Source: Thalassotalea hakodatensis (GTDB lineage: Bacteria; Pseudomonadota; Gammaproteobacteria; Enterobacterales; Alteromonadaceae). From it: a stretch of DNA of 64,000 nucleotides. The stretch is from the NCBI RefSeq assembly GCF_030295995.1, contig NZ_AP027365.1, positions 2,574,066 through 2,638,065 on the forward strand, in the 5' to 3' direction. Below the pieces are notes generated by a model. That model saw only the letters and a program-made list of their open reading frames with translations, had not been told where the DNA came from and did not search any database. Each line of letters begins with the position of its first letter. Position 1 is the stretch's first letter. Shown here in pieces: positions 30,751 to 42,919 of this stretch. The position numbers and the translations under genes were made by a program.

Positions 30751-33318
30751 ATGAAAAAAATACCTTTATTAGTCTTATCTGCATTGCTCACCAGTACAGC
30801 ATCGGCAGATATCATAATTTCAGAATACGTTGAGGGAAGTAGTTACAACAAAGCGATTGAGCTATTTAATACCAGCGCTCAAAGCGTCGATCTCTCTCAA
30901 TATCAACTTGCCTTATACTTTAATGGTAAAACGACAGCAGGAAACACCATTAACTTAAGCGGCACCATAGCCGCTAATAGTACTTTCGTGATTGCACATC
31001 GTGACATTGATAGCAGTGTTGCAACCCAGTTAACAACAGGCAGTTTACTGTTTAACGGTGATGATGCTATCGTGTTAAAGAAAGCAAATACGATTATTGA
31101 TTCAATAGGAAAAATCGGCCAAGACCCTGGTAGCCAATGGGGTAGCGCATTAACAAGTACAAAAGACAATACCTTAGTGCGTAAATCTTCTATCAGCAGT
31201 GGCGATACAAACCCAAATGATGACTTTAACCCCGCAGGCCAATGGATAGGCTTTGCAAAGAATACCCTTGATTCATTAGGCTCTCATCAGTTTGACGGTT
31301 CAACGGATAATGGAGACCCTGGTGACGGTGACAATGGTTCAGGTGATGGTGATGGTGGTGATGGTGATGGTGGAGATTCTCCAGCAACCAGCAACTGTGG
31401 TGATACATATACTAGCATAGCAAATATTCAAGGAAGTAGTAACAGTACCCCATTATCAGGGCATACAGTGTGGACAGAAGGTATTGTCACTCATACTCTT
31501 CAGCATACTGGTTATAAAGGTTTTTTCATTCAAAGCGCTGATCTTGAAGCAGACAATAACGCCATGACTTCAGAAGGTGTATTTGTTTATCACCAAGCTG
31601 ATACAGTTGCCGTCGGCGATAACATTCGTTTACACGCGAAAGTTAGTGAATATAACAATTTAACGCAACTTTCTACGGTGACTGAGCTACAGGTGTGTCA
31701 AACTGCGGTCAGTTTGCCTGCTGCACAATTAGTTACTTTACCCCTTGATGCAACCCAACGAGAAGCACTTGAAGGTATGAGGGTTACCATAAAAGATGCA
31801 GTGATCACAGATACCTATAACTATGGCCGCTATGGTCAGTTCGAAGTTGCCTCTGAACGTTTATATACACCAACGCAAGTATCTGAACCTGGCGCTTCGG
31901 CCAATCAGTTAGCAATAGAAAACGCTGAAAAATCGATTCTTGTTGATGACGGCGACACGGCACAAAATCCTGAAACGCTGCCCGCACCTACCCCTGAATT
32001 AAGTGCCATTAATTCATTACGAAGTGGTGATACAATACCAACATTGACAGGTATCTTGTCATTTCACTTTACTAATTATCAAATCCTACCAACAACACCT
32101 CTTGCTACCCAAACCACCAATGCTCGCCAGCAAACGCCTACCATTACTAACGTGGGTAATTTACGAGTTGCAAGCTTTAACGTGCTTAATTACTTTAATG
32201 GCAATGGCTTAGGAGGTGGTTTTCCAACCGCTAGAGGTGCTAAAACCGAAGCGGAGTTTGTGCGTCAGCGTGATAAAATTATTGCTGCCATTGCAACCAT
32301 TAACGCTGATATTATCGGTTTAATGGAAATAGAAAACGACGGATACGGCGCACAATCAGCCATTGCCGATCTTACTCAAGGGATAAACGCTTACTTTAAT
32401 GATAACGTTTATCAGTTTGTTGCTCCTGCGGAAAGTCAAATGGGAAGTGATGCAATAGCCGTTGGCATACTTTATAAAGCGAATTCAGTGACACCTGTTG
32501 AGGCTGCTAAAGTATTAAATAGCCAAAACTCTGCTAAAGATGAAAATGGCCAAGTACTATTCTTATCAAACAAGAACCGCCCTGTTGTAACACAGTTATT
32601 TAAACATCAAGCGTCTGAACAAGAAATTGTGATTGCGGTTAATCATTTAAAATCGAAAGGTAGTCACTGCAACAGCCTTAACGACTATGATAACAATGAT
32701 GGGCAAGGTAACTGTAACTTAACGCGTACACGAGCCGCTAAAGCACTTGGCTTGTTCTTAAATAAAGAATATGTCGAGCTGCCCACCCTCGTTATTGGCG
32801 ATTTAAACGCCTATTTAAAAGAAGATCCTATTGTTGCGTTAGCAAATGCCGGCTTTGATGACTTATTTACTACCTTAAATAAAGTGGATGCCTATAGTTA
32901 TATCTTTGATGGACAACTCGGCCAATTAGATCACGCGTTAGCTAATCAAGCTTTAGCACAGCATGTGGTAGATGTTGTCACTTGGCCTATAAACGCCGAT
33001 GAACCTCGCGTACTTGATTACAGCATGCAATATCAAAACGCGACACATCACGCAAAATACTACGCCCCTGATGCATTCCGTTCATCAGACCACGACCCTA
33101 TTATTGTCGAAATTTCGTTAACACAAGACAGTATGTTTGGAGATTTAGATCAAGATTCTGATGTAGATACCCAAGACATCACGCTGTTTTTAACATTATC
33201 AGCATCAAATGAATTAACCGATTTAGCTTACGACTTTAATAACGACAAACAACTCAACCGCCGAGATGTTCGCGGTTACATGCAACTGTGTACTCGTGCT
33301 CGATGCGCTACTGAATAA
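30751..33318 (+). CDS. secreted ExeM/NucH-type endonuclease with C-terminal dockerin-like domain
   Basis: 855 residues. A signal peptide (1-19) is followed by a lamin-tail-like domain (about 20-180), a Gly/Asp linker (about 185-215), an OB/NucH middle region, and an endonuclease/exonuclease/phosphatase domain (about 470-785) with IIGLMEIENDG (catalytic Glu), NHLKSKG, VIGDLNAYL and SSDHDPI (catalytic His-Asp). From about residue 797 two EF-hand-like Ca loops follow, DLDQDSDVDTQD and DFNNDKQLNRRD, i.e. a dockerin, ending LCTRARC. The gene is followed after 20 bases by a cohesin-like gene. It probably degrades extracellular DNA. Confidence 0.9.
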   Translation: MKKIPLLVLSALLTSTASADIIISEYVEGSSYNKAIELFNTSAQSVDLSQYQLALYFNGKTTAGNTINLSGTIAANSTFVIAHRDIDSSVATQLTTGSLLFNGDDAIVLKKANTIIDSIGKIGQDPGSQWGSALTSTKDNTLVRKSSISSGDTNPNDDFNPAGQWIGFAKNTLDSLGSHQFDGSTDNGDPGDGDNGSGDGDGGDGDGGDSPATSNCGDTYTSIANIQGSSNSTPLSGHTVWTEGIVTHTLQHTGYKGFFIQSADLEADNNAMTSEGVFVYHQADTVAVGDNIRLHAKVSEYNNLTQLSTVTELQVCQTAVSLPAAQLVTLPLDATQREALEGMRVTIKDAVITDTYNYGRYGQFEVASERLYTPTQVSEPGASANQLAIENAEKSILVDDGDTAQNPETLPAPTPELSAINSLRSGDTIPTLTGILSFHFTNYQILPTTPLATQTTNARQQTPTITNVGNLRVASFNVLNYFNGNGLGGGFPTARGAKTEAEFVRQRDKIIAAIATINADIIGLMEIENDGYGAQSAIADLTQGINAYFNDNVYQFVAPAESQMGSDAIAVGILYKANSVTPVEAAKVLNSQNSAKDENGQVLFLSNKNRPVVTQLFKHQASEQEIVIAVNHLKSKGSHCNSLNDYDNNDGQGNCNLTRTRAAKALGLFLNKEYVELPTLVIGDLNAYLKEDPIVALANAGFDDLFTTLNKVDAYSYIFDGQLGQLDHALANQALAQHVVDVVTWPINADEPRVLDYSMQYQNATHHAKYYAPDAFRSSDHDPIIVEISLTQDSMFGDLDQDSDVDTQDITLFLTLSASNELTDLAYDFNNDKQLNRRDVRGYMQLCTRARCATE

Positions 33319-33338
33319 TCATTAATTAAGGGAAAAAC

Positions 33339-33863
33339 ATGAAAAATTTATTTATACTACTTTGCTTGTTTGTTGCGACAAACGCGAACGCTAACCTCAT
33401 CTCGTTAAACAGCGATCAAGCGAGCTACAATACAAACGACAACGTACTATTAAACATTGCCGTTGAACAAGTCGCAGCAGAAATGGCTACGCTTGAAGTT
33501 GACATAGCTTTTGATAATACCTTGTTATCATTTGAAGATTTTGTTTTTGATTCTATGATGATGTCACCACCTTCACCTGCATTTGGCCCGTTATTTACTG
33601 ACGTTACGTTAAGCCAACCGGGTTTACTTTCAGTAGCCGTTTGGTGGTTTGATGCCACAGAAGTGCCCTCAACTTCCTTTAATTTAGGTATTGCAGAATT
33701 TACAGCGCTTGCTGACTTTACCGCATCGTTTGACATTGCAGCAGTTAGACAATTTGATATCAACGGTGACGAGATTGTCAGTGCGATTAATGAACCTGCA
33801 ACGGGCCTTTTACTATTCCTAAGCCTCTTTGCTTTGTTCCGTAAAAAGTACCATAACGCTTAA
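33339..33863 (+). CDS. secreted cohesin-like protein with PEP-CTERM-like sorting tail
   Basis: 174 residues. Signal peptide (1-18), then a cohesin-type beta-sandwich (about 20-145): LISLNSDQASYNTNDNVLLNIAV, a VDIAFDNTLLSFEDF strand pair, and VAVWWFDA. The tail NEPATGLLLFLSLFALFRKK (Glu-Pro, hydrophobic helix, basic end) has the layout of PEP-CTERM exosortase signals, although the motif is degenerate. It lies directly downstream of the dockerin-bearing nuclease in the same operon, so it is likely the nuclease's docking partner at the cell surface. Confidence 0.8.
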   Translation: MKNLFILLCLFVATNANANLISLNSDQASYNTNDNVLLNIAVEQVAAEMATLEVDIAFDNTLLSFEDFVFDSMMMSPPSPAFGPLFTDVTLSQPGLLSVAVWWFDATEVPSTSFNLGIAEFTALADFTASFDIAAVRQFDINGDEIVSAINEPATGLLLFLSLFALFRKKYHNA

Positions 33864-33879
33864 TCAAGGTTTCATCATA

Positions 33880-33909
33880 AAAAAGCCCTGTTAATTAACA
33901 GGGCTTTTT
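33880..33909. terminator. bidirectional terminator
   Basis: A perfect palindrome built on AAAAAGCCCTGTTAA and its complement, between the convergent cohesin-like and efpL genes. Confidence 0.92.
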
Positions 33910-33952
33910 CATCAATTGCGTTGTATAGTAACGTTCACGTTAAAACAGAATC

Positions 33953-34525
33953 TTACTTATCACCACGCCCCATAAACTTTTTCTCATCGGTGTTAATTTT
34001 TACGATATCACCCGTTGAAATATGTTCAGGCACTTGAATAATTAACCCCGTTGAAAGTGTAGCGGGCTTCGTTCTTGATGTCGCAGACGCCCCTTTAATG
34101 GAAGGATCAGTTTCTAATACGGCTAACTCAACGCTTGAGGGTAAGTCGATACCTACTGGAGAACCATCCACTAAAATTACCTGAACACCTTGAGTAGATT
34201 CATTGATAAACAGTACTTCGTCGCTAATAGATGCTTTATTTAGGTTGTATGGTGTGTAATCTTCGTTATCCATAAACACATACTCTTCACCATCAATATA
34301 AGAAAACATGACAGGTCGTCGAATTAAGTCCGCATAGTTCAGCATATCTGAATCTTTAAACGTTTCATCGACTTTACCGCCTGTCACCACATCGTACATA
34401 CGCATGCGATACAAACTTCCACCTGCTCTGCCCTGTGGCACTGAACGTTCAATATCTTTTATAATAAATACACCGCCATTGTGCTCAATAGCTTGGTTTT
34501 TCTTTACATCACTTGCCTTTGGCAT
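33953..34525 (-). CDS. efpL: elongation factor P-like protein EfpL (YeiP)
   Basis: 190 residues with the three beta-barrel domains of EF-P. It belongs to the YeiP/EfpL branch: the loop that reaches the peptidyl-transferase centre reads [17 protein letters not shown], with Arg where EF-P has its modified Lys or Arg. The end [15 protein letters not shown] is typical. EfpL helps ribosomes through polyproline stretches. An M14-like peptidase gene lies 31 bases upstream on the same strand. Confidence 0.9.
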
Positions 34526-34556
34526 GTTATTTCCTTAAATGTTAAACAAACTTTTA

Positions 34557-35489
34557 TTAATCATTATAACTATTGTTAGCGAGAATATATGCCAAACCAG
34601 CATTAATCACCGTTGCTTGTGCTAAATTACAATTATCAGTATCAACCTTAGGGCTGTCTGGGTAAACTTCTGTTGTGGTTACATATTTTGCGTCACTAAA
34701 GCCCATACATAAACCAAGTGGTCTAGCGTCATAATTGATTACTCCGAACTGTTCTATCGTTTCGCCAATTAATCTATTTTCATCATCAGCGGGAGCAATA
34801 TGCGTTATTTTAGCAACGGCATCTATTATCGCTTTTTGAAAAGCAGGTTGTGGTTTAGCTGTGTTAGCAACAAGGTAAAAGCCGTCAGGGATATTCCAAT
34901 TATCATGTACCGTTGCATCTCTCGCGGCAAGCGCAGGTCTAAATTCTGAGTTATCGGTATCAGTGGTTTCGTGTAAATCAAAATGCGCTAGTAGCTCAAC
35001 GCCTAACTCATCAATGAACGACATTAACTTTTCAGATTCTGGCGCAGGGCTTGGTTGATAAAAAGAACGGTTTGGATCAATCGCTAAAGGGTTCCAGCGA
35101 TTAATCGTTTCATACCCCCACGGACTAACACAAGGCGCAATGATAAAGTTGACCTGTTCATGAAAGTTTTCGGCAAATTGTTCTGCAAACAATAAAGCAC
35201 CATGCACACCACTTGTTTCGTAGCCGTGAACACCACCAGTCACCAGCACCGTTGGTTTGTTGTTAGTATAGGCTTTAGAAACTAACGCTAACAAAGGATA
35301 AGCTTCTTCGTTATAAGGTAAGGCACCGTACTGTTTAACGGTAAAATGATCGGTTAATTGGTTTATTTTACTGACCACTTCTTGTTGATAACTTCGTTTT
35401 ATTTGTTGTTTTTCACGCCATTGGGCTTTTTCTGCTGGCCCCCATTTAATACCGGGCTTGCCAATGGGGTAGAGAGTTTCGTTTTGCAT
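34557..35489 (-). CDS. M14-type metallopeptidase (succinylglutamate desuccinylase/carboxypeptidase fold)
   Basis: 310 residues. Zinc-site residues are visible: GGVHGYETSGVHG (His and Glu) and the late HFDLHETTDTDN (His), with the VTTTEVYP strand bearing a likely catalytic Glu. No signal peptide, so cytosolic. Family members remove amino-acid or acyl groups, and the exact substrate is unknown. It is followed by efpL after 31 bases on the same strand, so the two may be cotranscribed. Confidence 0.82.
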   Translation of the reverse strand: MQNETLYPIGKPGIKWGPAEKAQWREKQQIKRSYQQEVVSKINQLTDHFTVKQYGALPYNEEAYPLLALVSKAYTNNKPTVLVTGGVHGYETSGVHGALLFAEQFAENFHEQVNFIIAPCVSPWGYETINRWNPLAIDPNRSFYQPSPAPESEKLMSFIDELGVELLAHFDLHETTDTDNSEFRPALAARDATVHDNWNIPDGFYLVANTAKPQPAFQKAIIDAVAKITHIAPADDENRLIGETIEQFGVINYDARPLGLCMGFSDAKYVTTTEVYPDSPKVDTDNCNLAQATVINAGLAYILANNSYND

Positions 35490-35694
35490 AGGTTAATCTG
35501 TATTATTCGTGCGTTGGCAAGATTATACCGAAAGCCATGTATTATTCATCCCTCAGTTTATGTTAATCGAAATTTTCACTATGTTTTGTTACATCTATTC
35601 TCGATTAAACGCCGAGAGTTTACGATAAATTATACTTATATTGTATTGGATAGAGCGTTACACTAAAGCTATCTCTCGAAAGGATTTCTACGTT

Positions 35695-36780
35695 ATGTAT
35701 AAGCAAATACTGTTTCTTCTCACCCTCTCTACAATGTTGAGTAAGGTTATTATTGCTCAAGAGTATGAGACCATTGAACCACCAAGAAAATTAACAGCAA
35801 AACAAGCTGAAATAGCAGAGAAAAACTATCTTCAATATTGTGCTTTATGTCACGGTAAAGACAGACAAGGCCATGTGAACGACCATGCACCTTCATTAAA
35901 AAGCGCCAGTCTATTTCAGTCTGGTGTGCCTCATGCCATTTTAAGGCCAATGTCATATGGTCGAACTGGCACTCCAATGGGCGGCTATTTAGATGAGGTT
36001 GGTGGCCCTATGACATTAGAAGAAACATGGAACTTAACCTATTGGTTATTCGAAAAATCAGGCGTTGATCGGGTTAAATTGTCAACGAACCCTGTGCAAG
36101 GTGATATTAAAAAAGGCGAACGAGTCTATCAAAAAGAATGTTCAACTTGTCATGGCATCAACGGCGAAGGTATAACAGCTCCAGCTTTAGGAAATCCTTC
36201 AGCGCTAGCACACAACACCGATGAATTCATTCGTTATGCTATTCGACATGGTAGGAAAAATACCCCAATGAAAGCTTATCAAGGGATTTTACCAGAGCAA
36301 TCAATTAACGATATTACCGCTTTTTTACGCAACAAAGCCAGTGGCTGGCAAGATAATAAGCCAGTATTAAAACAACTACCAACGCCTGCAGAATATGTGG
36401 TAAACCCTGAGGGTGAACACCCAAATTTCACGCTTAAAGATGATCAATATGTGATGGCTGAAGACCTATATAAAGCCTTAGAAAAAAAACAGAAAATGGT
36501 ATTATTTGATACTCGTGTAACCTCGGTATGGCAAACCGCTCATATTAAAGGTTCCGTGCCATTACCTTATTATGCAGATCTTGATGCTATGATTGCAGAC
36601 ATCCCTACAGACGTTCAAATTGTTGCTTATTGTTCATGCCCGCGTGCTGCCGCTGATCATGTAGTCAATAAATTACGACATAAAGGTTTTACAAAAACAG
36701 CCGTTTTGTGGGAAGGTATTTTTGGTTGGATGCACCTTGGCTTCCCTGTCACTCGTGGTGATTTATCCACCCTTGATTAA
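35695..36780 (+). CDS. exported dihaem cytochrome c fused to a rhodanese domain
   Basis: 361 residues from ATG 35695 (AAAGGA upstream). The open frame starts earlier at TTG 35641 but lacks a signal peptide there. Signal peptide 1-21, then two cytochrome c domains with CALCH (49-53) and CSTCH (149-153), and distal Met candidates in TPMGGYL and TPMKAY. A rhodanese domain follows (about 255-355) with FDTRVTSVWQTAHIKGS and the active-site loop VAYCSCPRAAA (Cys 313). The fusion suggests a periplasmic sulfur-transfer or sulfur-oxidation step coupled to electron transfer. The substrate is not known. Confidence 0.88.
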   Translation: MYKQILFLLTLSTMLSKVIIAQEYETIEPPRKLTAKQAEIAEKNYLQYCALCHGKDRQGHVNDHAPSLKSASLFQSGVPHAILRPMSYGRTGTPMGGYLDEVGGPMTLEETWNLTYWLFEKSGVDRVKLSTNPVQGDIKKGERVYQKECSTCHGINGEGITAPALGNPSALAHNTDEFIRYAIRHGRKNTPMKAYQGILPEQSINDITAFLRNKASGWQDNKPVLKQLPTPAEYVVNPEGEHPNFTLKDDQYVMAEDLYKALEKKQKMVLFDTRVTSVWQTAHIKGSVPLPYYADLDAMIADIPTDVQIVAYCSCPRAAADHVVNKLRHKGFTKTAVLWEGIFGWMHLGFPVTRGDLSTLD

Positions 36781-36809
36781 TCATGTAGATTATTGTTTTA
36801 GGAGTTTTT

Positions 36810-37862
36810 ATGAAGTATGTTCGGTTAGGTAGTAGTTCATTAGAAGTATCAAATGTTTGTTTAGGTACCATGACATGGGGTAAACAAAATATACAACAAG
36901 ACGCCAATGAACAACTAGACTACGCGCAATATCACGGAGTGAATTTTATCGACACCGCCGAAATGTACGCAGTACCACCTACCGCTGACACTTATGGTAA
37001 AACTGAACGTATTATTGGTCATTATTTACAAGCTAATCCTTCACGCCGAGAAAATTTAGTCATTGCTACAAAAGCGGCTGGCCCTGGACTTTCATACATA
37101 CGGGGTGGCTCAGAGATAACACGGAAAGCGGTTATTCAAGCAGTTGATGATTCACTTAAGCGCTTAAGCACCGATCATATTGATCTATATCAGTTACATT
37201 GGCCGAATTACACCTCTCCTCACTTTGCTAAACATTGGCCAAATATGGTTGATTACACTGACGTGAACGCGACTGAAGAAATTGAGAAAATGCATGACAT
37301 TCTGCAAGGGTTAGCCGACTGTGTTGCCGCAGGAAAAATTCGCTATTGCGGTTTATCAAATGATACACCTTGGGGAATAAATCAATATGTCAAACTAAGC
37401 GAGCAGCACAATTTACCGCGAGTTGTTTCAGTACAAAATGAATTTAATTTACTTCATACCAAAGATTGGCCGTATGTAATCGAAAACTGTATCCACGAAG
37501 ATATTGCCTATTTACCTTGGTCACCATTAGCTTCTGGCGCGCTAACAGGTAAATACTTAAACGGAAGTAGACCAAAAGGTAGTAGATGGACCTTAATGCA
37601 AAGACATGGATTGTTTAGAGATACTGCGGCCGTTGAAAGCGCAGTTCAAAGCCTCAGCGATATTGCTAAGCAAATAAACCTTTCGCCAACTCAACTAGCG
37701 CTCGCGTGGGTAAATCAAGTAAAAGGGGTTACTTCAACCATTATTGGTGCAACCAGTATGGCGCAATTAGAAGAGAATATTGCTGCGTTCGAACTTTCAT
37801 TAAATGAGACAACACTTAATCAGATAGATCAGTGGTTAAAAACCTACCCATCACCCTATTAG
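36810..37862 (+). CDS. aldo/keto reductase, Tas-like
   Basis: 350 residues. AKR signature: GVNFIDTAEMYAVPPTADTYGKTERIIG holds the catalytic Asp and Tyr, with Lys in VIATKAAGP and His in YQLHWPNY. The NADPH-binding end IIGATSMAQLEENI is present. The length and the long insert after the catalytic Tyr match the E. coli Tas group. It lies 29 bases downstream of the cytochrome-rhodanese gene on the same strand, probably in one transcript. Confidence 0.9.
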   Translation: MKYVRLGSSSLEVSNVCLGTMTWGKQNIQQDANEQLDYAQYHGVNFIDTAEMYAVPPTADTYGKTERIIGHYLQANPSRRENLVIATKAAGPGLSYIRGGSEITRKAVIQAVDDSLKRLSTDHIDLYQLHWPNYTSPHFAKHWPNMVDYTDVNATEEIEKMHDILQGLADCVAAGKIRYCGLSNDTPWGINQYVKLSEQHNLPRVVSVQNEFNLLHTKDWPYVIENCIHEDIAYLPWSPLASGALTGKYLNGSRPKGSRWTLMQRHGLFRDTAAVESAVQSLSDIAKQINLSPTQLALAWVNQVKGVTSTIIGATSMAQLEENIAAFELSLNETTLNQIDQWLKTYPSPY

Positions 37863-37911
37863 TGCTTTTATTAACACTGACTAACTACACCAGAGAAAAA
37901 GATAGGTCGAG

Positions 37912-37952
37912 ATACCAATTACATCAAAAGCATACCTTGTTGTAATTGGTAT
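37912..37952. terminator. long inverted repeat between convergent genes
   Basis: ATACCAATTACA and TGTAATTGGTAT form a perfect 12-bp stem with a 17-base loop, at the end of the aldo/keto reductase gene and before the convergent PEP-CTERM-like gene. It works as a plausible terminator. Its TACCAATT edge is shared with the MITE at 5817-6128, so it could also be a small relative of that repeat. Confidence 0.5.
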
Positions 37953-37958
37953 ATATTG

Positions 37959-39140
37959 TTATTTCGTTAACCTTCTACGTTTGTACATAAACAATCCGGT
38001 AATTAAAGCAAGTAACATTATCCCGAAAGAATGAGGCTCTGATATTTTCACTACTTCAATATTCATATCGGTGGGCTTCGGGCTATTATCATCTGAAAAA
38101 TTTGGTGCTTGAACAAAACCCTTGTTCTGATTTACTGGATCTTGATTTCCATTTTCACCAGTAGAACTGCCACGGTTATTAAACGCACCTCCCGCATTGC
38201 CTTGATCTCCACCACCGTTACCTTGACCTTGTTGTTGCTCTTCACCGCCTATTGGCAAATTACCCAAGTTATTATCGGTCACAGAACCGTTATTTAGCTC
38301 TTCTTCGCCAGAGCCTCCCGTAGAGTTGGTATTTTCTTGACGAAACACTCGTTCAACAGCTTGTTTAGCCAGTAAGGCAGCTTTTTCTTTACCCAGCGAA
38401 ATCAGAGCCAATGGAACAGCAGATTTTATTGGTTGTTCAATAAACGATTCTGCAATATTGTTACTGGCAAAAAACAGCGGTGTAGAAGCATTTGTTCGGT
38501 TAATCACTGGAATTAGCTGACCAGAAGCTGTGCCAGTAGCCAATGAGAACACCGGTGCATTATTTTGAGAAAACCCTGAAGCAATTGGCGTATTAGCAAC
38601 AATGCCTGTACGACGAGCAAAGTTTCCTAAATAAGTATTACCGGCAATACCGGTAAGCCATTGTTTAGTTTCACCCACAATAACCCCGCCAAGATCCGCA
38701 GAAACAAATTGTGGTGCAGCATAAGTATCAATTGCCAACGTAGGCTTATTGACCACATTAATAGTTAATGAAAATTCAGTTGCCATTACATTAGCTGCGC
38801 TAACTACTCGAACCGTAACAGCAACATCTTCATCAACTTCATTGACATAAACAAAGAGTTCGTTCTGATTAAAAACACCTGTAACAGCATTATTATCGCT
38901 GATAACTTCAAAGATACGACCTTGTTGATTCAAGTCATCAATCGGAATAGAAAACATCGAATTTTCATGGGCAAGTACACTATTGTTAGCCATACCAAGC
39001 AATGAAAAATGTGCATTATCACTGGTAAAACCGGTCGCTTTATTTTGAAAGTCATAAATATTTGCTGTTGAAACACTGCTCAATCCCAGTAATGCAGCAA
39101 AACTTAACACTTTAGCTTGTTGAATAAGTTGATAATTCAA
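37959..39140 (-). CDS. secreted protein with PEP-CTERM-like tail, function unknown
   Basis: 393 residues from TTG 39140. I chose this start because GAGG lies 8 bases upstream and the signal peptide (NYQLIQQAKVLSFAALLGLSSVSTAN) then begins directly. The frame reaches 39227. A beta-rich N-terminal half with a cadherin-like turn (about 60-130) leads to an alanine/serine-rich middle and a Gly/Asn/Gln-rich low-complexity linker (about 275-350). The C-terminus ISEPHSFGIMLLALITGLF plus MYKRRRL is a PEP-CTERM exosortase signal. It is not paired with a dockerin gene. Probably surface-exposed. Confidence 0.75.
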   Translation of the reverse strand: MNYQLIQQAKVLSFAALLGLSSVSTANIYDFQNKATGFTSDNAHFSLLGMANNSVLAHENSMFSIPIDDLNQQGRIFEVISDNNAVTGVFNQNELFVYVNEVDEDVAVTVRVVSAANVMATEFSLTINVVNKPTLAIDTYAAPQFVSADLGGVIVGETKQWLTGIAGNTYLGNFARRTGIVANTPIASGFSQNNAPVFSLATGTASGQLIPVINRTNASTPLFFASNNIAESFIEQPIKSAVPLALISLGKEKAALLAKQAVERVFRQENTNSTGGSGEEELNNGSVTDNNLGNLPIGGEEQQQGQGNGGGDQGNAGGAFNNRGSSTGENGNQDPVNQNKGFVQAPNFSDDNSPKPTDMNIEVVKISEPHSFGIMLLALITGLFMYKRRRLTK

Positions 39141-39557
39141 GTGATGATCCTCGTTTGTATATAATTTACAAAAACTATTAACGTCAAAATGTAATGATGA
39201 CAACAGACAAGGATTGGGTAAGCTCAATTCTCTGCAACCCCGCTACCATAGTATTTACCTTAGGTCGGAAGCTTTGCGTATATGGGTTTCACCATACTTG
39301 CCTTTTACAAATATCGAATTAATAGTAATCTTTAATACGTTTTGCGTCAACAAAACGATCGTTTTGTTTAAAAAACCATCAAACAACTTTCACATTAAAA
39401 TGTATATTATCCATTTAATTAATTGATTAAAAAGATAAAAACTTTAATTCATTTTCTACACCTTATAACAATGCATTAACGCTATTAACAAATCATTGAT
39501 AATTATATTTTATACAATATACTTACAGCTGTATTTTATATACAAATTATAATAACG
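39141..39557. other. promoter region between the PEP-CTERM-like gene and the M9 peptidase gene
   Basis: No ORF of substance. It contains the divergent promoters and the 20-bp perfect palindrome at 39349-39368. The 120 bases before the peptidase gene are extremely AT-rich, with TATACAATATACTTACAG resembling promoter sequence. Confidence 0.5.
39349..39368. promoter_or_regulatory. perfect 20-bp palindrome, possible operator
   Basis: AACAAAACGATCGTTTTGTT is fully self-complementary, without a loop, and lies between two divergent genes for secreted proteins. No T-run fits a terminator on the plus strand. Which regulator would bind is unknown. Confidence 0.4.
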
Positions 39558-39578
39558 ATGATAAAAAAAGGAAACAAC

Positions 39579-41921
39579 GTGAAAACTCCACAACAGATAC
39601 TCTGTGCTGGTTTAGCTGTTAGCGCCTGTTTAAGTTATACAGCATTTGCTAATGAACAAATCACACCAAATATACTTTCTAAAACTTCAGCAAAGCCTTT
39701 GCTAACATCACATGCAGCAAAACAGTTACAAGATAGTAAACAACAAGATATCAGCCCCCCTAGGCAAATATCACCAAAACAATTCGAACTATTACTACAG
39801 ACAAAACAAACACTAAACGATCATTATCGCTCTGATCCAAAAACGCTTAATCGCTCAATGCGCTCTCCGATTAAAGCAATGCAAAGTAGCGGTTGTACCA
39901 ATGCCAATGAATTACAATCATTATCAGATGGTGCTCTAGTGAATGCCGTAGTTAATGGTGATTTAACTTCATGTCTTTATGGATTATTTGACGCTAACCT
40001 AGTTGGCACATCTGTATTCTCAGATCAAAGCTTACAAACCATTGCTGATGCCATAACAGATCTACTTTCTACTGGTTATGACGGAACTGACACCACAAAG
40101 GCTGCTCAATTAGAAAAATTAGTCATTTACTTACGTGCTATGTTCTGGGCTGAGTGGGGCACAAATAGAGTATTCGATAGTCAGTTTACCAATACGCTTG
40201 AGCAAGCATTTAACCTATACATTTCAGGTGAAAACTTTGTTAATTATAACGGCGAAGCAACCAGAGATTTTATGGTCAGATATGAGATGCTCATTTTATT
40301 ACGTAGCTCTGGTACTAATAACCTACCCTATTTAACGCGATTAACAGAAAGCTTACTTGGCTATGCTTCAACCGTAAACCGTGCTGATGATTGGGGTGTT
40401 TATTATGAAGAAAATGGTGTTACCCAGATCTTGACACATTTATTTAATACCTCGAGTGAAGATGCCAGCGCATTAGAACAATTAGTACAAAATCAACCTG
40501 AGTTACTTACCAATTTATCTTCTTTTGTATTAAACGAAGGTCAATGGCTTGTTGGTCACACACGGGAATATCAATGGGGTGATAGTGTTAATGAACTCGC
40601 CCGCTTTTTAAAATTTGGCGGCACGATTGCCGATACCGTTAGACCCGCCATTATCACCATACTAAATAACTACGATTACCAAGGCGCGGGTAGTATGGGT
40701 TGGTTAAAGGCACAAACGGCTGTGATAGCATATGATTCACAGAACTGTGATCTCTATGGCAATGCCTGTAGCTTCGATTTAGAAGCAACGATTTTATCTG
40801 GCAGCCACACCTGTAGCACAACCCTGAAGCTTCGTTATCAAGAACCTATTGATGAAGTAAACCGCGATCAAATTTGTGTGCAACTTGCCGAACAAGAAAC
40901 AGCTTTTCATCAAATGTTTCAAACGGCTAAAGATACACCAGTAAGCAATGATCATAATACTGATTTAGAAGTTGTTATTTTTAGTTCATACACTGATTAT
41001 GACAATTACGCAGGAACCTTCTTCGGAATCAGTACTGATAATGGCGGTATGTATTTAGAAGGTGAGCCTGCTACGCCAGGTAATCAAGCACGCTTTATTG
41101 CCCACCAAGCAACCTGGCTACCAACGTTTCAAGTGTGGAATTTACAACATGAATACGTGCATTACCTTGATGGAAGGTTCAACCTGTGGGGCAGCTTTTC
41201 AGATCAAGCTGATAACAGTGTTTGGTGGAGTGAAGGGTTAGCTGAGTATCTTTCTCAACCTAACAACAACAGCAATGCACTAGCCGCTGCTGCAAATAAA
41301 ACCTACGCGTTAAGTGAGCTATTTCAAACCACTTATGCCAATGGCAATACTGAGAGAATTTATCATTGGGGCTATTTAGCAACACGCTTTATGATGGAAC
41401 AAAATCGTGCTGATATTGATAACACATTGTTACCTACGTTTCGTGCAGCCAAATATGTAGTTTCAACTGCTGAATGTGCATTTGATTGGGGTTGGAAATC
41501 GAAAACAGAAGCCATCGAAAATAATTGGTACTGGGCCTATGACGACAGTGAATGGGCAAGCGGCAGTTGGGTTTGGACTTGCGGCCAACCAAATGAAGAA
41601 CAACCTGAGCTACCTAACTTCACACCTTATCAAGACATTATTACCACTTGGGGCGTTAATTTCGATGCACAATTTAACGAGTGGTTAGACTGTATTATTG
41701 CTGGCAATGGCGAATGCCAAGCCGTAGAAAATAACCCTGCTGATATCGACGGAAATCAACAAGTGGACAGCCGAGATATTGCAGCTTTCAGTCGTATGTT
41801 GCGCCAACAAGGCAGTTTATCACTTGAATATGACTTTAACCAAGACGGTATCGTTGATAGACGAGACATTCGCAGCATGATGTCATTATGTGACCAAGCT
41901 CGCTGTACAATTGTCCAATAA
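39579..41921 (+). CDS. secreted M9-type metallopeptidase (collagenase-like) with C-terminal dockerin-like domain
   Basis: 780 residues from GTG 39579, preceded by AAAGGAAAC. ATG 39558 is an in-frame alternative without a ribosome site. Signal peptide about 1-25. After a propeptide-like region an M9N-type domain is followed by the zinc domain with HEYVH (about 524-528) and downstream WWSEGLAEYLS (third ligand Glu). The C-terminal 59 residues hold two Ca loops, DIDGNQQVDSRD and DFNQDGIVDRRD, i.e. a dockerin, ending LCDQARC as in the nuclease. A cohesin-like gene follows after 15 bases. It probably degrades extracellular protein such as collagen. Confidence 0.88.
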   Translation: MKTPQQILCAGLAVSACLSYTAFANEQITPNILSKTSAKPLLTSHAAKQLQDSKQQDISPPRQISPKQFELLLQTKQTLNDHYRSDPKTLNRSMRSPIKAMQSSGCTNANELQSLSDGALVNAVVNGDLTSCLYGLFDANLVGTSVFSDQSLQTIADAITDLLSTGYDGTDTTKAAQLEKLVIYLRAMFWAEWGTNRVFDSQFTNTLEQAFNLYISGENFVNYNGEATRDFMVRYEMLILLRSSGTNNLPYLTRLTESLLGYASTVNRADDWGVYYEENGVTQILTHLFNTSSEDASALEQLVQNQPELLTNLSSFVLNEGQWLVGHTREYQWGDSVNELARFLKFGGTIADTVRPAIITILNNYDYQGAGSMGWLKAQTAVIAYDSQNCDLYGNACSFDLEATILSGSHTCSTTLKLRYQEPIDEVNRDQICVQLAEQETAFHQMFQTAKDTPVSNDHNTDLEVVIFSSYTDYDNYAGTFFGISTDNGGMYLEGEPATPGNQARFIAHQATWLPTFQVWNLQHEYVHYLDGRFNLWGSFSDQADNSVWWSEGLAEYLSQPNNNSNALAAAANKTYALSELFQTTYANGNTERIYHWGYLATRFMMEQNRADIDNTLLPTFRAAKYVVSTAECAFDWGWKSKTEAIENNWYWAYDDSEWASGSWVWTCGQPNEEQPELPNFTPYQDIITTWGVNFDAQFNEWLDCIIAGNGECQAVENNPADIDGNQQVDSRDIAAFSRMLRQQGSLSLEYDFNQDGIVDRRDIRSMMSLCDQARCTIVQ

Positions 41922-41936
41922 CCAAAGGAAAACACT

Positions 41937-42491
41937 ATGAAATCATTTATTATTAGCTTGCTTACGCTCTTCACGTTAAATTGCCACGCAACCCTTATAG
42001 AACTTAAATTAGATCAAACATCGTATCAACAAGGTGATACCGTCACCGCAACGATTGTCGCTAAAAACTTTCCTTATACCTTAGGCGGGTTTGCAGGAGA
42101 AATGAACTTTGATGACAATGCATTAGCGTTAACAAGTTGGCAATTTGGTCAAGGCTTTGATGATGGCTTCGGCAGCTACTCTCATGCTGATGACAGTATA
42201 GATGGTTCACTTTATCTTGAAGATTATGCTGATTTATTTGCAGATGAACCCACCATCACAGCCATACAAGGTAATGAATTTGTACTTGCTACTATCGCAT
42301 TCACAGCAGTAGGTTCAGGCCAACAAACTTTGTCATTGCTTAATGGTTTTGAAGTACTTAGTTTTGATAATACGATGTTAGATCAACTACAAGGCATGGC
42401 TATTACTTTTGATGTTACTTCGGTACCAACGCCCGCAAGTATTGCCCTGTTTAGTTTAGCACTGCTATTACTTCACAGAGTTAAACGTTAA
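41937..42491 (+). CDS. secreted cohesin-like protein with PEP-CTERM-like sorting tail
   Basis: 184 residues. Signal peptide (1-19), a cohesin-type beta-sandwich (about 20-155: TLIELKLDQTSYQQGD, GGFAGEMNFDDNALAL, LATIAFTAVGSGQQTLSL), and a tail VPTPASIALFSLALLLLHRV plus basic end, the PEP-CTERM layout with VPTPAS. It follows the dockerin-bearing metallopeptidase after 15 bases. The arrangement and domain order repeat those at 30751-33863. Confidence 0.8.
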   Translation: MKSFIISLLTLFTLNCHATLIELKLDQTSYQQGDTVTATIVAKNFPYTLGGFAGEMNFDDNALALTSWQFGQGFDDGFGSYSHADDSIDGSLYLEDYADLFADEPTITAIQGNEFVLATIAFTAVGSGQQTLSLLNGFEVLSFDNTMLDQLQGMAITFDVTSVPTPASIALFSLALLLLHRVKR

Positions 42492-42919
42492 CTGTTCAGC
42501 GTAACGTTTATTTTTTCACTTGGTTTGTTACTCCTTAACAGGCCAAGTGAATATGTTTAATATGCATCAAACTGTTATCATTATTTTTCTGAACAACAAT
42601 AACCTTACAGATTAATTTAACATTTTACTTTGTTTACACGTCAATTATTTGCTCATTCAATAAGTATTAGTCTACTTTTAACCAAGTTGGTTTAACGCAT
42701 CAAATCACTATCTGGTTCAATTATCAGCAATAATTAGGATAGTTACCATAACGCTTTTAACGCCCAAAATGACGTAATTAAACACCACTTTTGGCTTTTT
42801 TATTTATACCAACTTTCAAAATAAACACAATTTATCAATATTTCGTTGGATTAATCAGGTTTTTTGCGTAAAGTAGAGAAATACAATTTGTTGTAATAAA
42901 ATTACATTTAGGTGTTGAT
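42492..42919. other. gene-free region upstream of ppc
   Basis: CACTTGG/CCAAGTG arms (about 42518-42551) may form a weak terminator after the cohesin-like gene. The remaining 360 bases are AT-rich promoter DNA of ppc with no ORF or riboswitch-like structure that I can recognise. Confidence 0.45.

Follow-up and report, generated by a model that had tools for sequence, protein, structure and literature searches.

Paired genes for dockerin-bearing enzymes and single-cohesin anchors with PEP-CTERM-like tails in Thalassotalea hakodatensis and other Alteromonadaceae

In a stretch of 64,000 nucleotides (hereafter, the window) from the gammaproteobacterium Thalassotalea hakodatensis (contig NZ_AP027365.1), two unrelated secreted hydrolases, a nuclease and a peptidase, are each followed by the gene of a small secreted protein. 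What is the small protein for, and why does the same arrangement stand behind enzymes that have nothing else in common? An earlier note, made from the letters of this DNA, had read both cases as a dockerin-bearing enzyme with its own cohesin anchor. Here we report that the two pairs belong to a recurrent gene arrangement of the family Alteromonadaceae, and that they are likely to serve one-enzyme/one-anchor surface display, in which an exosortase-sorted cohesin would capture a separately secreted dockerin enzyme. This reading is built on predicted domains, modelled structures and genome comparison.

Both pairs lie on the + strand of the window, and the open reading frames (ORFs), their coordinates and the reported spacing of 15-20 bases were confirmed. 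The first enzyme (30751..33318) is an ExeM/NucH-type secreted nuclease of 855 amino acids (NF033681, 609 bits), with an LTD domain (PF00932, 63.8 bits), an endonuclease/exonuclease/phosphatase domain (PF03372, 36.4 bits) and a C-terminal dockerin (33133..33315); 20 bases separate its gene from that of anchor 1 (33339..33863, 174 amino acids). The second enzyme (39558..41921) is an M9-type secreted peptidase of 787 amino acids (PF01752, 289.7 bits; PF08453, 54.5 bits; PF00404, 27 bits) with the dockerin at its C-terminus (41733..41915), and 15 bases lie between its gene and that of anchor 2 (41937..42491, 184 amino acids). The scores with NF033681 and PF01752 bear out the enzyme identities proposed in the earlier note. 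Each anchor contains one cohesin between a start that by eye resembles a signal peptide and a PEP-CTERM-like tail, hydrophobic and ending by eye in basic residues. A consensus scan placed a terminator-like hairpin with a 16-pair stem directly 3' of anchor 2 (42515..42551, + strand), whereas neither intergenic gap within the pairs holds a listed hairpin on the + strand; because 17 hairpins were found in the region against 9.6 expected, the terminator call is only suggestive.

The two-loop dockerins described at the C-termini of the enzymes were upheld. That of the M9 peptidase exceeds the PF00404 cut-off in the full-length scan (27 vs 22.9 bits) and scores 32.7 bits as a domain alone. The dockerin of the nuclease, which PF00404 did not detect in the full-length protein and scored at 9.6 bits in a six-frame genome search, is 38% identical to it and has the same two 12-residue calcium-type loops; it matches a profile of three dockerins, which includes this domain, at E 2.6e-33. 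Residues at the calcium-ligand positions are present in both. A profile of 51 dockerins retrieved solved dockerins from the PDB (5lxv_B, E 1.1e-7; 2y3n_B, E 2.9e-7), with EF-hand proteins mixed in, and PF00404 matches 49 of the 51 domains at E<=0.01. Across the 51, D4, D12, D15, D34 and D45 are invariant, and the calcium-ligand columns of both loops show little or no variation, loop-2 position 9 being the less conserved one. Loop-1 positions 10 and 11, which we take to be recognition positions as in known dockerins, are among the most variable columns. A cysteine element common to both enzymes had also been noticed, and it is indeed shared, as CTRARC in the nuclease and CDQARC in the peptidase; the spacing originally given, C-x3-ARC, is off by one, and the element reads C-x2-A-R-C (C-x4-C). 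The C-x4-C motif occurs in 141 of the 145 distinct dockerins of the family loci examined, and its two cysteines probably form a disulfide.

The anchors were compared with known cohesins in sequence and in predicted structure. With PF00963, anchor 2 scores 25.5 bits, above the cut-off of 24.1, and anchor 1 scores 18.1 bits, below it; the two cohesins are 28% identical. Searches with PF00404 and PF00963, which the earlier note had proposed, therefore recover the dockerin and anchor of the M9 pair above the cut-offs and leave those of the nuclease pair below. AlphaFold modelled anchor 1 with medium confidence (mean predicted local distance difference test score, pLDDT, 74; predicted template-modelling score, pTM, 0.65; 4-row alignment), and cohesin-bearing chains account for 50 of the 50 PDB matches listed for this model (57 at E<=0.001), the best being 6kgc_A (E 4e-6), with a template-modelling (TM) score of 0.66 by target length to 2jh2_C. 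The M9 dockerin and anchor 2, modelled in one chain (pLDDT 68, 7-row alignment), likewise gave 50 of 50 cohesin-bearing chains among the matches listed, including 6kge_A (TM score 0.76 by target length). Furthermore, a profile of 79 anchors retrieved cellulosomal cohesins from the PDB, the best being 3l8q at E 1.2e-17 with profile positions 24-163 aligned, and with antibody light chains among the matches from E 0.0014 onward, and PF00963 matches 28 of the 79 anchors at E<=0.01. By predicted fold, both window anchors are cohesins, in agreement with the earlier note.

The source genome (4.28 Mb, single contig) contains a third pair. The three-dockerin profile gave three strong matches in it, which are its own training set, and the next match stood at E 0.18; the third dockerin had first been found with PF00404 (24.2 bits in six frames, and 22.5 bits in the protein scan with its cut-off of 22.9). 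It lies internally, with the motif CSYANC, in an M43 peptidase of 1212 amino acids that also has PKD and PPC domains, and 67 bases after this gene follows the gene of a 187-amino-acid cohesin protein, which matches a cohesin profile that includes it at E 7.5e-25 and alone has no Pfam match. A single exosortase was matched in the same genome (TIGR02602, 225 bits), and Cys, Arg and His motifs, presumably those of exosortases, are visible in it. There are also 18 PEP-CTERM rows above the cut-off, one of them containing a stop, and a type II secretin is present with 542 bits. A search for more dockerin/cohesin neighbours and for exosortase, as suggested earlier, thus yielded both.

To what extent does the pairing recur? 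The dockerin profile (E<=0.001) matched, among the matches listed, 97 of 196 genomes and 37 of 52 genera in a sample of the Alteromonadaceae, the family of the source organism. The 150 profile matches listed were examined in their loci, with 118 further stretches fetched for the purpose, and deduplication left 148 distinct dockerin genes in the 97 genomes. A cohesin gene stands directly downstream (within 500 bases) in 108 of these 148 listed genes, so that the predicted recurrence beyond the window is amply realized; the median gap is 31 bases (loci not deduplicated). In nine of the 148 the cohesin gene is directly upstream, and seven of the nine, by reading, share it with another dockerin gene. 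Conversely, a whole-genome cohesin search found a dockerin within 3.5 kb of 107 of the 150 listed cohesins and of 95 of the best 100. Taken with the third pair of the source genome, the 108 of 148 indicate that the pairing is more than chance. No multi-cohesin scaffoldin occurs among the listed family cohesins, all 150 of which lie in frames of 165-251 amino acids.

In this family sample, cohesins are found only where exosortase is found. With exosortase counted at E<=0.001 and cohesin at E<=1e-5 in the same 196 genomes, cohesin occurs in 86, all 86 of which also have exosortase, as the earlier note would lead one to expect, and in none of the 46 exosortase-less genomes (86 with both, 0 with cohesin only, 64 with exosortase only, 46 with neither; Fisher p 1.5e-14). 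In two of the cohesin-bearing genomes (G143 and G149) the exosortase matches fall just below the curated cut-off. For dockerin the corresponding numbers are 94, 3, 56 and 43. The three dockerins without exosortase (L110 in G018, L132 in G185 and L071 in G077) have no cohesin beside them; two of these enzymes are M43 peptidases with the domain make-up of the third pair and one is a nuclease. The dockerins of exosortase-less genomes may be a relic, or may have another partner or another function. Among the 79 anchors, the PEP-CTERM models PF07589 and TIGR02595 match 36 (E<=0.01) and 44 (E<=0.05), respectively. By eye the anchor tails are PEP-CTERM-like, and individually they are weak: the tail of anchor 1 is just at the TIGR02595 threshold, the one of three source-genome anchors to reach the cut-off, and that of anchor 2 has weak matches to PEP-CTERM families (best E 0.0022).

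Dockerin and cohesin distances are correlated over 106 pairs from 75 genomes (r 0.61). In the 27 genomes with several pairs (58 pairs), r is 0.625, vs 0.17 +- 0.06 after partners were swapped within genomes, and none of 2000 swaps was as high. When the comparison is confined to enzymes that share no BLAST similarity, r is 0.35 overall, and in multi-pair genomes 0.26 vs 0.04 +- 0.05 for swaps (0 of 1000 as high); since some enzyme bodies are incomplete, a few related enzymes may remain in this set. As measured on the predicted domains, these correlations show that dockerin and cohesin diverge jointly, as one unit, which taken alone is no proof that they bind.

The enzymes that carry dockerins are diverse. 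In a set of 61 nonredundant dockerin proteins, treated as groups of 40 and 21 (at least one, L152, being cut at its end), Pfam families were counted at E<=1e-5 for the best 25 of 39 and the best 25 of 26 families. LTD was counted 16 and 6 times in the two groups; nuclease domains comprise Endonuclease I (12 and 2) and Exo_endo_phos (10 and 4); peptidase domains comprise M9 (4), M43 (2 and 1) and S8 (1); polysaccharide-type domains comprise porphyranase-type (6), lambda-carrageenase (1) and GH98 (1). BNR_4 was counted three times, and three of the 21 proteins have PF21027, which takes its name from the cellulose-binding protein Sde0182. No cellulase is present among the families so counted. Judged from these domain assignments, one docking module serves nucleases and proteases as well as polysaccharide enzymes, and the modular reuse that had been supposed from two enzymes extends to the nuclease, M9 and M43 pairs of the source genome and to further cargo families in its relatives.

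These observations suggest the following scheme. The small gene would encode an anchor, with a single cohesin and a C-terminal PEP-CTERM-type exosortase signal, that would be exported via Sec, handled and presumably cleaved by exosortase, and brought to the cell surface or into exopolysaccharide. The large gene would supply a hydrolase (nuclease, M9 or M43 peptidase, or in relatives a polysaccharide enzyme) with a calcium-binding dockerin, exported separately via Sec and then probably by type II secretion. Outside the cell, calcium, which is high in sea water, would load the dockerin, which would close on the cohesin, preferably that of its own pair, and the docked enzyme would stay near the cell, either on its surface or within the matrix. 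Such a split design would allow a large folded enzyme to be displayed without a sorting tail of its own. That the pairs represent a general Gram-negative 'split surface enzyme' system, with two export routes joined outside by private calcium-gated pairs, is a wider proposal to which we give even odds.

Several results weigh against one-enzyme/one-anchor display. Exosortase is widespread in the family, with matches in 150 of 196 genomes (147 above the curated cut-off), and the kinship of genomes was handled by genus collapse alone, which gives 30, 0, 14 and 8 genera in the four classes (p 4e-4). Co-divergence can also arise from joint inheritance of the gene pair. The tails of the M9 and third anchors have no TIGR02595 match at E<=10, and in the two-domain AlphaFold chain (pTM 0.55; dockerin pLDDT ~55-70) the interface and the placement of the dockerin are unreadable. 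The cohesin models, having been trained mainly on dockerin neighbours, are not blind and favour paired cohesins. For 43 of the 150 listed cohesins, no dockerin lies within 3.5 kb. Among the 148 listed dockerin genes, 31 have no adjoining cohesin: 12 of these are in genomes with a cohesin elsewhere, three are in the exosortase-less genomes, and the remaining 16 are in 13 exosortase-positive genomes without cohesin at E<=1e-5. Two of the 16 have particular surroundings, namely L150, with a PEP-tailed neighbour accepted only by the model that includes the tail, and L154, with a downstream flank of only 609 bases.

The 12 dockerin genes with a cohesin elsewhere, the other unpaired dockerin and cohesin genes, and the tandem dockerin genes around one cohesin (L045, L046/L050 and L097) would also suit a shared pool, in which any dockerin of the cell uses any cohesin anchor and adjacency sets only the dosage. 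We regard such a pool as possible and rather doubtful, because swapping partners within genomes destroys the co-divergence, the two window cohesins are so little alike, and the loop-1 positions assumed to govern recognition are highly variable. It is improbable that the anchor is a simple membrane tether, with its tail uncut and the enzyme retained at the inner membrane or within the periplasm: AlphaFold does draw the anchor 1 tail as a single long helix (H155-173), and two of the three source-genome tails are not matched by TIGR02595, but exosortase accompanies cohesin in all 86 family genomes, the same model matches more than half of the 79 anchors, and the cargo is of extracellular type. 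Still less credence, and very little, is due to the idea that the small protein acts on its enzyme as inhibitor, chaperone or secretion partner and has its cohesin fold incidentally, the dockerin being a calcium-stabilized end cap. A small secreted gene immediately 3' of a hydrolase gene, and the dockerins retained without a cohesin neighbour in three exosortase-less genomes, would fit this idea; the same type of anchor, however, stands behind nucleases, M9 and M43 peptidases, and cohesin divergence follows that of the dockerin even where the enzymes are unrelated, which is not expected of an enzyme-specific inhibitor. Chance or misread domains were ruled out by the PDB profile matches, the fold matches and the gene pairing counts.

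OlpA-type anchors are attached by SLH domains to the Gram-positive wall, in a cellulosome organism. Cohesins and dockerins outside cellulosomes were reportedly reviewed by Peer et al. in 2009. The display proposed here resembles the OlpA-type anchors of Clostridium thermocellum (PDB 3ul4) in having one surface cohesin able to take a dockerin enzyme directly, and Archaeoglobus fulgidus 2xdh and Clostridium perfringens 2jh2/2ozn in using modules outside cellulosomes; the latter are fold or sequence relatives of the domains described here. The available descriptions of such non-cellulosomal cohesins and dockerins mention neither an exosortase signal nor a pairing of enzyme and anchor genes, and in the accessible portion of one paper their function outside the cellulosome is called 'not known' (PMC5244752).

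In Ruminococcus flavefaciens, according to the available part of its description, ScaE is a single-cohesin anchoring scaffoldin with an LPXTG signal, attached by sortase, that binds the dockerins of ScaB and CttA (PMC2930009). Like the anchors as proposed here, as far as that part goes, it combines a single cohesin with a C-terminal sorting signal and holds dockerin proteins at the cell surface. However, ScaE relies on a Gram-positive sortase and peptidoglycan, and one ScaE anchors a whole cellulosome via a scaffoldin, whereas here the signal would be of the PEP-CTERM/exosortase type, the host is Gram-negative, an enzyme gene mostly has an anchor gene to itself, and no scaffoldin is among the listed cohesins. 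By this analogy, ScaE is the closest known system in principle, and the present system would be cohesin-dockerin anchoring in a new form; it is not a cellulosome. The minimal, non-cellulolytic cellulosome counterpart of the earlier note holds for the docking principle, but must be amended in that the listed family cohesins include no multi-cohesin scaffold, the cargo includes polysaccharide enzymes, and 31 of the 148 dockerin genes lack an adjoining cohesin.

A C-terminal sorting signal on extracellular nucleases and proteases is known, from the available part of the report, in the GlyGly-CTERM/rhombosortase system (PMC3237569), where the signal sits on the enzyme itself; here a putative one sits on a separate anchor. 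Rhombosortase is above the cut-off in 192 of the 196 family genomes, so that the docking system is no substitute for it; replacement of rhombosortase by docking was considered and ruled out, as numbers of this kind offer no contrast. PEP-CTERM proteins typically are without homology outside the tail, as stated in the accessible part of their description (PMC1569441).

Full-text literature contained no publication joining dockerin or cohesin with PEP-CTERM, most subscription journals being outside that search, and none on dockerin plus cohesin in Alteromonadales or on a Gammaproteobacteria dockerin with carrageenase; because of this scope, single modules may have been noticed earlier in Gammaproteobacteria. 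A paper on methanotrophic archaea treats cohesin, dockerin and exosortase in separate sections of its available text, and the main text of a 2024 genome survey of cellulosome bacteria (PMC11557425) is without the words proteobacteria, gram-negative, pseudomonadota or alteromon.

Outside the family the modules are fewer. In a sample of the class, cohesin was matched in 25 of 369 genomes, of which 22 do not belong to the family. A scan of 24 class loci, including 1.5 kb on either flank, gave a dockerin-type match (E<=1) in 12, and six of the 12 have C-x4-C (L179 and L189 overlap); at L177 and L190 the cohesin matches are in long frames, not small anchors, that of L177, outside the family, containing two. 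In a sample of the phylum, 10 of 398 genomes have a cohesin match, eight of the family and two of the same class. Going by these profile matches, cohesin is frequent in the family and scattered across other Gammaproteobacteria. A scan of named organisms gave at least three loci: those of Colwellia sp. E2M01 (L160) and Bowmanella pacifica (L161) are enzyme-anchor pairs, and beside the third, a dockerin-like protein of Latescibacteria (L162), no such anchor was seen by eye.

The pairs make the role of PEP-CTERM proteins, and that of non-cellulosomal cohesins and dockerins, directly testable as a problem of binding and localization. If display by docking is true, around half of the sampled family genomes would use it to hold nucleases, proteases and polysaccharide enzymes on the surface. 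This bears on which cells retain what extracellular breakdown releases, and Gram-negative hosts would be a source of many small dockerin-cohesin pairs of natural origin. A split surface enzyme system, if it exists, would account at once for what a class of PEP-CTERM proteins does and for what non-cellulosomal cohesins do, and would display many large enzymes, none of which needs a sorting tail.

Some further features of these loci deserve mention. Between the two pairs of the window lies an ORF of 422 amino acids (37959-39227, - strand) with a PEP-CTERM-like tail (TIGR02595, 13.6 bits, below the cut-off) and no Pfam domain at E<=1; ORFs resembling it adjoin the M9 pair in two relatives (L042 and L043). 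Genome G009 has four dockerin proteins (L053, L076, L085 and L092) and exosortase, without cohesin at E<=1e-5, and may hide a divergent cohesin. Ten loci (L051, L088, L097, L100, L107, L116, L117, L122, L124 and L131) encode dockerin proteins of 1459-1507 amino acids with no cohesin directly downstream; that of L051 has Endonuclease I and LTD domains, and several are by eye near RND efflux-like genes. In G176 (contig C9, ~160-178 kb; L046, L048 and L050), several dockerin genes stand in a row, two or more coding for BNR_4 proteins, and are accompanied by two cohesin anchors; the group resembles a small display cluster, which may serve a polysaccharide. Finally, a second dockerin subtype with extra cysteines (CDVD...RN.P...DADGDG.IT..DAR.C...C....C) is found near single-cohesin PEP-tailed proteins in the family (L149, L150, L152 and L156) and in other families (L166, L167, L168, L171, L172 and L178), and may constitute a parallel pairing class.

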